DNA of 64,000 nucleotides from contig NZ_VDMJ01000009.1 in the NCBI RefSeq assembly GCF_006335115.1, forward strand, positions 84,832 through 148,831, given 5' to 3'. The stretch's first letter is position 1. Every line of letters begins with the position of its first letter. Of this stretch, positions 17,120 through 59,072 are shown piece by piece. The stretch comes from Streptomyces sp. NP160 (GTDB lineage Bacteria > Actinomycetota > Actinomycetes > Actinomycetales > Quadrisphaeraceae). A model generated the notes under the pieces. The model searched no databases and was not told the DNA's origin. It saw nothing but the letters and a program-made list of their open reading frames with translations. A program made the translations under genes and the position numbers.

Positions 17120-17815
17120 GTGCGCCTCGTCATCGCCCGCTGCTCGGTCGACTACGAGGGGCGGCTCAACGCCCACCTGCCCCTCGCCACCCGCCTGCTG
17201 CTCGTCAAGGCCGACGGCAGCGTGCTCGTGCACGCCGACGGCGGATCGTACAAGCCCCTGAACTGGATGAGCCCGCCGTGCTCGCTCGCGGTGGGACCCG
17301 CCACGGGCCCCCACGCCGAGGCGGGCGCCCAGGAGGTCTGGACGGTCAGCGCGTCGAAGACGGAGGACCGGCTCGTGGTGGCCGTGCACGAGGTCCTGCA
17401 CGACTCCACCCACGAGCTCGGCACCGACCCCGGCCTGGTCAAGGACGGCGTGGAGGCGCAGCTGCAGAAGCTGCTGGCCGAGCAGGTCGAGCTGCTCGGG
17501 GAGGGCCACCAGCTGGTGCGCCGCGAGTACCCCACGGCCATCGGCCCGGTCGACCTGCTGGTGCGCTCCCCCCACGGCGGCACGGTGGCGGTCGAGGTCA
17601 AGCGCCGCGCGGAGATCGACGGCGTCGAGCAGCTCACCCGCTACCTGCAGCTGCTCAACCGCGACCCGCTGCTGGCGCCCGTCGAGGGCGTGCTCGCCGC
17701 CCAGGAGATCCGGCCGCAGGCCCGGGTCCTGGCCACCGACCGGGGCATCCGCTGCCTCGTGCTCGACTACGACGCGCTGCGCGGCGTGGACGACGTCGAG
17801 TCCCGCCTCTTCTGA
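17120..17815 (+). CDS. nucS: Mismatch endonuclease NucS/EndoMS
   Basis: A 231-residue endonuclease that cuts mismatched DNA in the non-canonical actinobacterial mismatch repair pathway, recruited by the sliding clamp. The N-terminal dimerisation domain starts [16 protein letters not shown]. The C-terminal PD-(D/E)XK nuclease has GPVDLLVRS and [12 protein letters not shown]. The extreme C-terminus ([13 protein letters not shown]) resembles the beta-clamp binding tail of the family. Length matches known NucS proteins. The gene is followed by an array of palindromes. Confidence 0.95.
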
Positions 17816-17829
17816 CCCCCGCCCTCTTC

Positions 17830-17933
17830 GCACTTTCCGCGGAAAGTGCGCCACACACCCCCGCCCGTCGCGCACTTTCCGCGGAAAGTGCGCTACAGAC
17901 CCCCGCCGATCCCGCACTTTCCGCGGGAAGTGC
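17830..17933. repeat. Array of three 20-bp palindromes at 42-bp period
   Basis: GCACTTTCCGCGGAAAGTGC occurs at 17830-17849 and 17872-17891, and once with a single change at 17914-17933. Start-to-start distance is exactly 42 bp both times. The two 22-bp intervals (17850-17871, 17892-17913) are similar to each other (both contain acccccgcc), so this is a degenerate 42-bp tandem repeat with a palindromic core. It lies 15 bp after the nucS stop and before a same-strand membrane gene. Confidence 0.93.
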
Positions 17934-30749: not shown

Positions 30750-30859
30750 AGCATCTCCTCGGTGTCGGTGGCCGCCGGGTCGTGCTGCTCCCTCGGAGCG
30801 GAGCGCACGTGAGCCGGAGCCGGCGAGCAGTCTGCCAGCAGGACTGGCACTCCTCATAA

Positions 30860-37888: not shown

Positions 37889-38200
37889 CTAGCCGAGGCC
37901 GTGCCCGAGCAGCGCCCGGAGCGCCTCCAGGTGGGCCTGCAGCGCCGCGCGGCCCTCGCGGGTGAGGGCCAGCCAGGTGCGCGGCCGCCGCCCGACCCGG
38001 CCCTTGGTCACCTCGACGTACCCGGCGGCCTCCAGGGCCGCGACCTGCTTGGAGAGCACCGAGTCCGAGACCTCGACGGCGTCGCGGACCTCGCCGAACT
38101 CGGCCCTGTCGACCCCCGACAGCGCTGAGACCACGGAGAGGCGGACCGGGGAGTGGATGACGTCGTCGAGCTGGTGGCGGGGGTGGGAGGTGCTGGTCAC
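37889..38200 (-). CDS. Winged-helix transcriptional regulator (MarR/HTH_34-like)
   Basis: A 103-residue DNA-binding protein. It starts TSTSHPRHQLDDVIHSPVR and shows RLSVVSALSGVDRAEFGEV and SVLSKQVAALEAAGYVEV (recognition helix), then GRRPRTWLALTREG (wing). This small single-domain type usually represses its own operon and is often paired with a membrane protein, as here. GTG at 38200 overlaps the upstream stop (GTGA). The two 14-bp palindromes before the operon are the best candidate operators. Confidence 0.85.
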   Translation of the reverse strand: MTSTSHPRHQLDDVIHSPVRLSVVSALSGVDRAEFGEVRDAVEVSDSVLSKQVAALEAAGYVEVTKGRVGRRPRTWLALTREGRAALQAHLEALRALLGHGLG

Positions 38201-38628
38201 CTGCGCGACCACCGCAGGGCGACGAGCGCGGTCGCGAGCAGGGGCAGCGCGCTGACGAGCGCCGCGGGCAGCCAGTAGGCGGCCTCCCCGTGGCGGGAGC
38301 CCCCGATGACCAGCACCAGGCCGTAGACGACCCCCCAGCTGCCCCAGGCCAGGCCGTGCAGCCAGCCCTCGCGCCACAGCCGGACGGGGCGCGTGGCGGC
38401 CCACCCCACCCCGAGCGAGACCAGGAGCACCCAGCCGATCATCGCGGTGGTGGTGCCGGCGTCCCCGCCCAGCCCGATGAGGGTGACGACGGCAGCGCTG
38501 CCGACGGCGAAGGCTGCGAAGTAGGTGGCCAGCCACCGGCCCCGGGCCGCGAGGCCCCGGCGCGCGGCGTCGGCGCCCGCCAGCGCGCTGAGGGCCTGGT
38601 CGGCGGTGAGGTGCGCGTGCTCGCTCAT
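38197..38628 (-). CDS. Membrane protein paired with the winged-helix regulator
   Basis: A 143-residue protein with about four helices (ATYFAAFAVGSAAVVTLIGL, AMIGWVLLVSLGVGWA, GLAWGSWGVVYGLVLVIGG, LVSALPLLATALVAL). I recognise no characterised family. It is translationally coupled to the regulator. ATG at 38628 has no ribosome binding site; CACACT is exactly 7 nt upstream, so a leaderless transcript is likely. Confidence 0.7.
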   Translation of the reverse strand: MSEHAHLTADQALSALAGADAARRGLAARGRWLATYFAAFAVGSAAVVTLIGLGGDAGTTTAMIGWVLLVSLGVGWAATRPVRLWREGWLHGLAWGSWGVVYGLVLVIGGSRHGEAAYWLPAALVSALPLLATALVALRWSRR

Positions 38629-38640
38629 GTCGACGAGTGT

Positions 38641-38673
38641 GGCAAGTACTTTCCACTCTGGCAAGTACTTGCC
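38641..38673. promoter_or_regulatory. Two 14-bp operators before the membrane/HTH operon
   Basis: GGCAAGTACTTGCC at 38660-38673 is a perfect palindrome. GGCAAGTACTTTCC at 38641-38654 matches it with one change. Centres are 19 bp apart (about two helical turns), and the near copy begins 12 nt upstream of the ATG, touching the likely -10. Repression by the downstream winged-helix protein is inferred. Confidence 0.75.
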
Positions 38674-38685
38674 GGCACCGATGCC

Positions 38686-38789
38686 GCACTGGCGCACCCG
38701 AGTGCGCGATCGAGGGTCGCCGAAGCCGCACTCGGGTGCGCGAGTGCGCGATCAGGGGTGGCCCAAGCAGCACTCGGGTGCGCGAGTGC
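38686..38789. repeat. Second array of three 20-bp palindromic units at 42-bp period
   Basis: Units at 38686-38705, 38728-38747 and 38770-38789 all have the form GCACT-N10-AGTGC. The last two are identical (GCACTCGGGTGCGCGAGTGC) and the first is the inverted unit with one change. Start-to-start distance is exactly 42 bp both times. Intervals of 22 bp are similar to each other (gcgatc at the start of each). It lies between two same-strand genes, just 3' of the helicase. Confidence 0.93.
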
Positions 38790-38806: not shown

Positions 38807-40690
38807 TCAGAGCTGGGCGAGCAGGAAGTCCCGGCGCTTCTCCAGCACCTCCACCGAGGCCGAGGCCGACGCCGGCCCCGGCACGGCCCTGCGCAGCGCC
38901 ACGTGCACCCGGGCGTGCGGCTCCCCGGAGCGCGAGGCCACGCGCGCGACCAGCTGGTTCACCTCGCGGCGCAGCTCCGCCGCGGCCCGCCAGCCGGCCT
39001 GGCCCTCGTCGGGCTCGAAGCGCCCCGCAGCCGAGTCGGAGCCCCCGGCGGCGCCGGCACCGCGGCCGCCCCCGCCGTCGTCGTCGCCGAGACCGCCGAA
39101 GAGGTCGTCCTGCACGGCGGCGGCCGCCGCTGCGCGGCGGTGCTCCTCGTCGCGCTGCGAGAGCAGGTGCGCGGTCTGCTCGGGGGTGAGCATCCCCGCG
39201 AGCAGACCCAGGTGCTCGCCGTCCTCCTCCGAGAGCTCCGCGGGGGCCGAGCCCGCGAGCACCGCGCGGCCGCCGTGCAGCACGTGGGCGAACTGCGCGT
39301 CGGCGTCCAGGGCCCGCCACTCCCGGGTCTCGCCCGCGGCGCGCTCTCGCGGCGGCAGCGGGTCGAGGTCCTCGCTGGCCTCCGCGGGCGGCGGGATGAC
39401 GTGGTTGCGCTCCTCCTCCATCGACGCCGCCAGCGTCAGCAGCGGGCGCACCGCCGGGAGGAAGACCGTCGCGGCCTCGTGCGGACCGCGGCTGCGGACC
39501 ACGCGCCCGACGGCCTGGGCGAAGAACAGCGGCGTGCGGTAGCTGGTCATCCACGCCAGCACGGCCGCCCGGGGCACGTCGACGCCCTCGGAGACCATGC
39601 GCACGCAGACGGCGATGCGGGTGGCCCCGGTGCCGAACTTCTCGATCTTCTTGGACGCCGTGGGGTCGTCGGACAGGATCAGCTCCGGCTTCTGGCCGGT
39701 GACCTTCTTGACGATGGCGGCGTAGGCGCGGGCGTCGTCCTGGTCGGAGGCCAGCACCAGCCCCGCGGCGTCGGGCATGCCGTGGGCGCGCAGGTGCGTG
39801 ATGCGCTCGTCGACGGCGGCGATGACGTGCGGCACCCACTGGCCCTTGGGGTCGAGCACGGTCTTCCAGGCGGTGGCCTCGACGCTCTTGGTGCTCGGCT
39901 CGCTGAGCGACGCGGCGATGACCTCCCCGGCGCTGTTCCGCCAGCGAGCGGTGCCCGTGTAGGCCGCGAAGACCACAGGCCGGACCACGCCGTCGCGCAG
40001 CGCCTCGCGGTAGCCGTAGGTGTAGTCCGCGGAGCTGCGCAGCTCCCCCGGCTCGCCGTCGGGCACCTCGGCGTACTTCACGAACGGGATGCGCTCCCCC
40101 GGCTTGGTGCGGAACGGCGTCCCGGTCAGGCACAGGCGGCGCGCGGCCCGGTCGAAGGCCTCCTCGGCCGCCTCGCCCCAGGAGAGCCCGTCACCGGCGT
40201 GGTGCACCTCGTCGAGGATGACCAGCGTCTTGGCGGCGGTGCAGCGGGCGGCGTGCAGCGCGGGCTTGCCCGCCACCTGCGCGTAGGTGGTGACGTAGCC
40301 CTTCGTGCCCGCCCGCACCGGCCCCACGGCGTTGGTGAGCGTGGGGTCCAGCACGATGCCGGCGGCGTCGGCGGCCTCCGCCCACTGCGTGCGCAGGTGG
40401 TCGGTGGGGGCGACGACGACGACGCGGGCCACCTCCCGGCGGGCCAGCAGCCGGGACGCCAGCGTCAGGGCGAACGTCGTCTTGCCGGCGCCCGGCGTCG
40501 CCGTGACGAGGTAGTCCGTGGGCCTCTCGGCCTCGTAGCGCCCGAGCGCCTCGGACTGCCACGCGCGCAGCGGCCGCCCGCCGTGGGACTCCACGGGGCC
40601 GACCACGGCTCCGGGGTCGCCGGGAGCCTCCGCGGGCAGCAGGTGCGCGGAGGCTGACAGGCGGGCTCGCTGGAGCGGGGAGGAACTCAC
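38807..40690 (-). CDS. DEAD/DEAH-box superfamily 2 helicase
   Basis: A 627-residue helicase. Motif I is TATPGAGKTTFAL, motif II LVILDEVHHAG (DEVH), motif III LTGTPFRT, and motif VI AQAVGRVVRSRG. An acidic/Gly linker (GGLGDDDGGGGRGAG) separates the helicase core from a C-terminal domain of about 90 residues. It resembles ResIII/RadD-like actinobacterial helicases; the substrate is unknown and no methylase or nuclease lies nearby, so a restriction role is not supported. GTG overlaps the MFS stop (GTGA). Confidence 0.88.
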   Translation of the reverse strand: MSSSPLQRARLSASAHLLPAEAPGDPGAVVGPVESHGGRPLRAWQSEALGRYEAERPTDYLVTATPGAGKTTFALTLASRLLARREVARVVVVAPTDHLRTQWAEAADAAGIVLDPTLTNAVGPVRAGTKGYVTTYAQVAGKPALHAARCTAAKTLVILDEVHHAGDGLSWGEAAEEAFDRAARRLCLTGTPFRTKPGERIPFVKYAEVPDGEPGELRSSADYTYGYREALRDGVVRPVVFAAYTGTARWRNSAGEVIAASLSEPSTKSVEATAWKTVLDPKGQWVPHVIAAVDERITHLRAHGMPDAAGLVLASDQDDARAYAAIVKKVTGQKPELILSDDPTASKKIEKFGTGATRIAVCVRMVSEGVDVPRAAVLAWMTSYRTPLFFAQAVGRVVRSRGPHEAATVFLPAVRPLLTLAASMEEERNHVIPPPAEASEDLDPLPPRERAAGETREWRALDADAQFAHVLHGGRAVLAGSAPAELSEEDGEHLGLLAGMLTPEQTAHLLSQRDEEHRRAAAAAAVQDDLFGGLGDDDGGGGRGAGAAGGSDSAAGRFEPDEGQAGWRAAAELRREVNQLVARVASRSGEPHARVHVALRRAVPGPASASASVEVLEKRRDFLLAQL

Positions 40691-58661: not shown

Positions 58662-58703
58662 GGGGTGGGGTGCCGCTCTTCGGGACTTCTGGAGAGCGAC
58701 GAG

Positions 58704-59072
58704 TGGAGGTGGCGGGAATCGAACCCGCGTCCGCCGTCGTACCCCCAGGGCTTCTCCGGGTGCAGACCGTGAGTCGTTCTGCTCGGCCCCAGCGCTCACA
58801 CGGACGTTGCGCTGACGGGCCCAGTCACCTTGGTTTCCCACCGACCCCGGTGACACTGGTCGGTGGTGGAGCCCCCTAGCTGACGCCGGTACCCGGGCCG
58901 GGAGCACTCCCGGGCCGACGGACTTTCACCTCAGCTGATCAGGCAGCGAGAGCGAAGTCGGTGCTCTTGGAATCGGCACCTATGGGTTTGCAAGGAACGT
59001 TAACGAGATGACCTTGCCTTCTCGACCCGCTTCCCCTGGTTCGACGATGCGACGTCGAGACCTGGCACCCCC
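58704..59072 (-). ncRNA. ssrA: Transfer-messenger RNA (tmRNA)
   Basis: This 369-nt gene encodes tmRNA, which rescues stalled ribosomes with SmpB. The 5' end GGGGGTG (59066-59072) pairs with CACCTCC at 58705-58711, with a G3-U70 pair as expected for alanylation. The 3' side contains the T-arm GGTTCGATTCCC. The reading frame 58939-58977 encodes the tag ADSKSTDFALAA and TGA. The 3' CCA is not encoded (discriminator A is followed by CTC). smpB is 3 kb away on the same strand. Confidence 0.95.
58939..58977 (-). other. tmRNA tag reading frame
   Basis: GCC at 58977 to TGA at 58939 encodes ADSKSTDFALAA. The FALAA/YALAA end is the conserved degron recognised by ClpXP in other bacteria. Confidence 0.93.

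Follow-up and report, generated by a model that had tools for sequence, protein, structure and literature searches.

Rows of 20-bp palindromes at a 42-bp period behind Quadrisphaera genes, very probably a REP/BIME-like dispersed repeat

Intrinsic terminators, whether tandem or bidirectional, are hairpins located soon after stop codons and often serve convergent genes, and the DNA uptake sequences of Neisseriaceae are short repeats spread genome-wide, with species dialects and with inverted pairs at terminators. REP and BIME elements are described, in excerpts of two publications (PMC3733652, PMC2817692), as extragenic imperfect palindromes forming species-specific families in E. coli, Pseudomonas and Stenotrophomonas, grouped in twos or in small clusters, chiefly where neighbouring genes converge or run in one direction, with several families per genome. 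According to one proposal RAYTs disseminate REPs and BIMEs, and gyrase is a protein bound by BIME-2 (PMC2817692, excerpt); REPs of E. coli may additionally stall ribosomes at the termination codon (PMC12306157, excerpt). REPINs are paired palindromes with a variable spacer, arranged as inverted pairs of which some can form one long hairpin, and in P. fluorescens spacings of 71 and 110 bp occur most often (PMC3116915, excerpt). REP-like repeats have been known for decades, with a selfish, terminator or DNA docking role still unsettled. Titles and the first parts of abstracts in the open-access literature yielded no description of the arrays reported here.

The window, the whole stretch of 64,000 nucleotides that was analysed, belongs to a genome of the genus Quadrisphaera (4.77 Mb, 186 contigs) and holds two arrays, listed below with their neighbouring genes.

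17120 to 17815, plus strand: NucS endonuclease gene (Pfam PF01939/PF21003), ending 14 bp before the first array
17830 to 17933, plus strand: first array of the window, class A core, three units at 42 bp, starting at 17830, 17872 and 17914
38197 to 38628, minus strand: next gene downstream of the helicase gene and on the same strand, its start 57 bp past the array
38686 to 38705, minus strand: unit 1, GCACTGGCGCACCCGAGTGC as the plus strand reads, an inverted copy with one change
38706 to 38727, no strand: linker 1, 22 bp, of the symmetric class B linker consensus
38728 to 38747, plus strand: unit 2, GCACTCGGGTGCGCGAGTGC
38748 to 38769, no strand: linker 2, 22 bp
38770 to 38789, plus strand: unit 3, GCACTCGGGTGCGCGAGTGC, identical to unit 2
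38807 to 40606, minus strand: DEAD/ResIII-type helicase gene by our own gene call (Pfam PF04851/PF00270)

The array at 38686-38789 consists of three 20-bp palindromic units with a period of 42 bp, located on the 3' side of the helicase gene, 17 bp from its stop codon. These coordinates agree with the first-pass annotation, which had described two identical units and an inverted one with a single change, sharing their ends with the first array and differing from it in the core. A promoter-like stretch lies between the array and the gene at 38197-38628 and is kept in three other genus members (G001, G003, G004). At 38634-38674, upstream of the same gene and kept in the same three genomes, a repeated AAGTACTTGCCA-like motif looks like a putative regulator site. 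Rfam 15 at gathering score returned two window matches, neither overlapping an array; both are ordinary, a tmRNA at 58701-59072 and an L31 ribosomal-protein leader at 30770-30823.

The unit pattern, termed F1, was defined as GCACT-N10-AGTGC, with the pattern read backwards as control. Exact units number 116 in the home genome (G000) against 1 for the control, and unit pairs spaced 40-42 bp number 56 against 0. The case for recurrence beyond chance is strong at the genome scale, both counts being set against a reversed-pattern control in place of a shuffled genome; the window-only count is weak evidence, with 6 matches at up to one mismatch against a shuffle mean of 2.99 and 8 of 100 shuffles reaching 6. 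When up to two end mismatches are permitted beside an exact unit, 127 units occupy 56 places, of which 37 carry two units, 14 three and 2 four (53 with two to four), with solitary units at only 3, one of them at a contig end. Intervals between exact units no more than 400 bp apart, counted with no preselected spacing (n = 57), are 42 bp in 49 cases, 41 bp in six, and 40 and 84 bp in one each. Two contigs start or stop beside or within an array (L018 at the start of C102, L042 at the end of C142), so arrays may fragment the assembly and be undercounted.

F1 itself is rare. In a phylum survey the pair pattern occurred in 1 of 396 genomes, the home genome, and among the GTDB matches listed outside the genus it is found in Amycolatopsis marina, Pseudokineococcus and an Intrasporangium MAG; other matches listed, from Tamlana, a Bacteroidetes MAG and Labilibaculum, resemble tandem repeats of other kinds. 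Within the genus, pair counts are 56, 39, 43, 0, 14 and 0 in G000 to G005, where G002 is Q. granulorum DSM 44889 and G001, G003, G004 and G005 are other members. Outside the home genome, G003, G004 and G005, the 40-42 bp spacing was preselected by the search pattern and carries no evidence on the period.

Home units fall into two core classes, class A (GCACTTTCCGCGGAAAGTGC) and class B (GCACTCGGGTGCGCGAGTGC). Class B linkers measure 22 bp in 43 of 44 intervals, with one period of 41 bp, and class A linkers measure 20-22 bp, giving periods of 42, 41 and once 40 bp. The linkers, a feature beyond the first-pass annotation, are non-random, the class B consensus being symmetric with no covariation between its two halves. 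The earlier claim that orientation can flip while phase is kept is supported: among class B arrays of two units, both of which could be classified, seven are '-+' and four are direct pairs (two '--', two '++'), confirming the flip. The seven '-+' against no '+-' indicate that orientation is not free, the same half tending outward, and phase is not absolute (42, 41, 40 bp). Pairing between units 1 and 2, considered as a selected feature, was rejected for want of an excess over permutation (class A z 0.5 and -0.3; class B a deficit, z -2.4). In class B, units 1 and 2 resemble each other in direct orientation more than permutation predicts (z 3.7), consistent with tandem duplication.

Genomic place was analysed with our own gene finder. 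Only 5 of 127 home units fall inside predicted ORFs. For the 91 F1 arrays outside ORFs (52 home, 35 Q. granulorum, 4 G001), 80 facing-stop distances of up to 60 bp were recorded, 42 of them at 12-19 bp and 2 below 12 bp, with 13-17 bp the commonest gap. No facing stop codon occurs within 60 bp at 30 of the 91 arrays, nor within 150 bp at 11 of 52 home arrays and 6 of 36 in Q. granulorum. Arrays are enriched between convergent genes: gene pairs that hold an array are convergent in 19 of 50 cases, and those lacking one in 30 of 229 (odds ratio 4.1, p = 1.2e-4). Between tandem genes the array is closer to the upstream stop than to the downstream start in 12 of 18 home cases (p = 0.016) and in 8 of 11 Q. 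granulorum cases (p = 0.18). By our estimate, which assumes about one gene per kb, an array is found at only 1-2 per cent of gene ends, so the array is not the general terminator. A functional theme of the neighbouring genes was also considered; the 20 flanking proteins scanned out of 44 listed share none and include no transposase family, one of them belonging to no family.

Mechanism aside, the array is very probably a REP/BIME-like dispersed repeat at gene ends. The leading reading of its role, which we put forward tentatively, is a repeat of this kind at transcription-unit ends acting as a two-way transcript-end hairpin. Rows of two to four palindromes, one every four turns (42 bp), follow a stop codon and would serve both sides between convergent genes, and RNA from either gene would fold into one or more hairpins that may contribute to halting RNA polymerase, insulating the gene that follows or protecting the transcript's 3' end. 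An array can expand by duplication of the 42-bp module; species gain and lose arrays, and at one site other palindrome families take their place or give way to them. The data show the family, its place and period, its predicted ability to fold, and gain or loss and exchange; termination or 3'-end protection, as well as the origin of new copies, we infer.

Counted in favour of the transcript-end reading are the place behind stop codons, the convergent enrichment, predicted folding, class A pairing, family exchange, tandem growth and the lack of a neighbour theme. Compared with dinucleotide-shuffled sequences, both window arrays are predicted to form more stable structures (z -4.9 and -6.8). In class A, pairing between the flanks and the linker ends exceeds the level expected from permutation (home genome, z 3.7 on either side; Q. 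granulorum, 1.9 and 1.8), and both arms have changed at the orthologous sites L048 and L049 between the home genome and G001. This flank-linker pairing is weak elsewhere, at z 0.8 and 2.4 for class B and z 1.0 and -0.6 for A. marina, and per-position pairing tests in class B range from z -2.6 to 2.3. Counted against the transcript-end reading are the arrays with no facing stop, sites with no hairpin, array-poor gene ends, and the imperfect palindrome of the unit consensus in class B and in Q. granulorum. None of 101 gene-sense readings has a U-tract (five T in eight nucleotides, at most 12 nt past the last unit). For tandem arrays the predicted folds favour neither strand, the sense strand being more stable in 20 of 35 F1 cases (p = 0.40), in 4 of 10 for a second palindrome family, F2 (CCGCAGCCGAGCGCCTGGTTGCGG and its reverse complement), and in 9 of 18 for F3, a hairpin TGATCATGG...CCATGATCA; this counts against the reading because selection at the RNA level would predict a bias. 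The fixed period, moreover, has no obvious reason in RNA. The missing U-tract, the missing strand bias and a spacing not required in RNA keep the transcript-end reading tentative and leave phased docking on DNA as a doubtful possibility and a selfish repeat as a less likely one still.

Docking at the DNA level is a serious rival, possible though we doubt it. Palindromes lying whole turns apart on one helix face would allow a dimeric DNA-binding protein, a topoisomerase or a nucleoid protein to assemble and to serve, where genes end, as a roadblock or as a sink for supercoils, by analogy with gyrase on BIME-2 of E. coli. The same absence of U-tract and strand bias speaks for it, as do the centre of class A, through which the unit is palindromic, and the outer half, which is alike at both array ends (14 inverted 'fr', 6 'ff', 6 'rr' and 0 'rf' among 26 classified Q. 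granulorum pairs). Its main argument is the period, F1 intervals of 42, 41, 40 and 84 bp lying near whole helical turns. The proposal of one architecture carried by sequence-distinct cores holds genome-wide and extends to F2, which lacks the GCACT and AGTGC ends. A census of this unrelated family in four genomes, with spacing not selected, gave 42 bp in 24 of 26 intervals, six of the 24 coming from a single tandem array, with one interval of 41 and one of 44 bp. F2 also lies behind stop codons, at 20 distances of 5-28 bp; 5 of 22 clusters outside ORFs have no stop within 60 bp, and seven more clusters are inside predicted ORFs.

With GCACT units masked, the commonest distance between intergenic 9-bp direct repeats of G003 is 42 bp (9 of 132 region-distance counts over 76 distances), six of the nine regions being F2 and three not. 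The same distance ranks first in G000 (11, partly F1 linkers) and G001 (3); in G002 the leading distance is 24, and in G004 it is again 24, with 4 counts, and 42 is tied at 3. F3 hairpins number 26, 21, 48, 26, 21 and 21 in G000 to G005 against 0 for the control, and some F3 arms repeat at 31 bp, again favouring docking; in general, however, the F3 arms occupy the same niche with no fixed distance, which tells against it. At L082 2986 in Q. granulorum, rows of TGATCATGG arms at 31 bp face inward from both sides.

Intervals other than 40-42 bp in A. marina and A. palatopharyngis are 33/34, 52/53 and 62-64 bp (13 intervals; R = 0.88 at 10.5 bp). This is a weak indication of spacing by whole turns, as the loci were chosen for a 40-42 pair, seven of the 13 intervals are 63 bp and possibly of common ancestry, and R takes values of 0.94 at 10.0 and 0.75 at 9.0. 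A. marina carries composite arrays A-42-A-63-A (L066 4156, L077 2885, L113 3335), in which the 42-bp linker keeps an alternating purine-pyrimidine core, e.g. TGCGCACGCA, and several 63-bp linkers have TTGCC close to a unit. The Intrasporangium MAG (L085, L112) holds palindromes with the same ends in head-to-tail rows at 21 bp, half of 42. Cores of A. marina and A. rifamycinica appear to resemble Noc and ParB sites. Weighing against docking, a single sequence-specific protein could hardly bind F1A, F1B and F2, and no candidate binder was identified. A broader form of the idea is equally doubtful, namely that the conserved character at some Quadrisphaera gene ends is geometry: rows of dyads four helical turns apart from any palindrome family (F1A, F1B, F2), where a host complex would read dyad spacing on one DNA face or a cruciform-like structure as families swap beneath.

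Comparison with sister species documents gain, loss and exchange of arrays, and bears on an unlikely third reading, a selfish or neutral repeat with no host role that would spread by unexplained means, grow by slippage and survive only where harmless, just behind genes. Presence and absence at both window sites favour it. The helicase gene has matches in all six genus genomes; the array is present in G000 and G004, absent from G001 and G003, which have the same next gene, and absent from G002 and G005, which have another. At the NucS site an array occurs in G000 only. Pair counts that differ sharply within the genus point the same way, and so do fresh tandem copies, found for F2 in L177 and at the helicase site of G004, where four exact units with one identical linker repeated three times are, judging from that linker, a case of tandem growth.

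Against the selfish reading, at least 16 of the 56 home arrays are matched by an array in Q. granulorum (both flanks align at 12 sites and one flank at 4; a lower bound, as the comparison covered fetched loci) even though the linkers are rewritten, and unit number is 3 and 3 at three matched sites and 3 and 2 at two. Quadrisphaera F1 linkers differ between copies, unlike those of copy-and-paste elements, and the six genus genomes contain no Y1 transposase match. Core class differs at five matched sites (L014/L102, L016/L096, L031/L106, L032/L132, L042/L083). Nine home arrays were tested against fetched stretches of four sisters, eight being comparable in some or all and one unmatched. At three of the eight (L006 3033, L048, L052), G003 carries F2; other orthologous sites hold F1, F3, ACGATCAAGG palindromes, plain hairpins or nothing, with neither array nor clear hairpin in G004 at L049 and L047. 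At one site, a sister species may carry the other core class, another palindrome family, or nothing. In Q. granulorum, L124 3597-5995 (two genes) and L088 2123-5630 (three) contain predicted genes missing at the matching home site; one flank of these genes carries a solitary unit and the opposite flank an array, as though the genes had landed within an array.

Four further readings were rejected: a translated repeat (42 bp being 14 codons), with units mostly outside ORFs and 28 of 37 Q. granulorum F1 intervals, within the preselected 40-42 bp, measuring 41 bp; a CRISPR-like array, the units lying at dozens of separate places with mostly two to four palindromes each; a fixed-spacer copy-and-paste element, excluded for Quadrisphaera F1 by its differing linkers, although A. 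marina does keep a linker core; and a RAYT-driven REP, no RAYT match being found.

Across sister species the sequence changes, and the place and often the 42-bp spacing stay; the precise sequence thus seems less important than spacing and place. Replacements of this kind, which have occurred naturally at a single site, disentangle sequence from place and from spacing, so experiments on linker length and family swaps could test why such repeats are retained, and could do so in a genus whose six genomes yielded no match to the usual REP transposase.

Among known systems, DNA uptake sequences resemble F1 as a short repeat spread over the genome, and differ in that solitary F1 units are rare and few units fall in ORFs. 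Intrinsic terminators share the predicted stable hairpin 3' of a stop codon, seen at both window arrays, with 30 of 91 arrays lacking a facing stop within 60 bp; unlike them, F1 arrays have no U-tract, repeat near-identical 20-bp sequences at dozens of sites and keep a fixed period. REPINs are likewise paired palindromes, and some F1 pairs are inverted; the F1 spacing is 42 bp in place of 71 or 110 bp, direct pairs occur too, and no RAYT is found. A search for RAYT (Y1 transposase, PF01797) matched none of the six draft genus genomes and was positive in 5 of 14 control genomes, and arrays read by eye revealed no constant GTAG or CGTC tag at unit ends. On these two grounds the family is not filed as a REP member, though it resembles REP in place and form. 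In common with REP/BIME, F1 arrays are short extragenic imperfect palindromes in many copies, lying in pairs or clusters, for the most part between genes that converge or run in one direction, and belonging to one of several species-specific families in a genome. Their copies are regularly spaced and of mixed orientation. Beyond the RAYT and the tag, they are set apart by a near-invariant 42-bp period common to a sequence-unrelated family and by the exchange of families at orthologous sites in Quadrisphaera.
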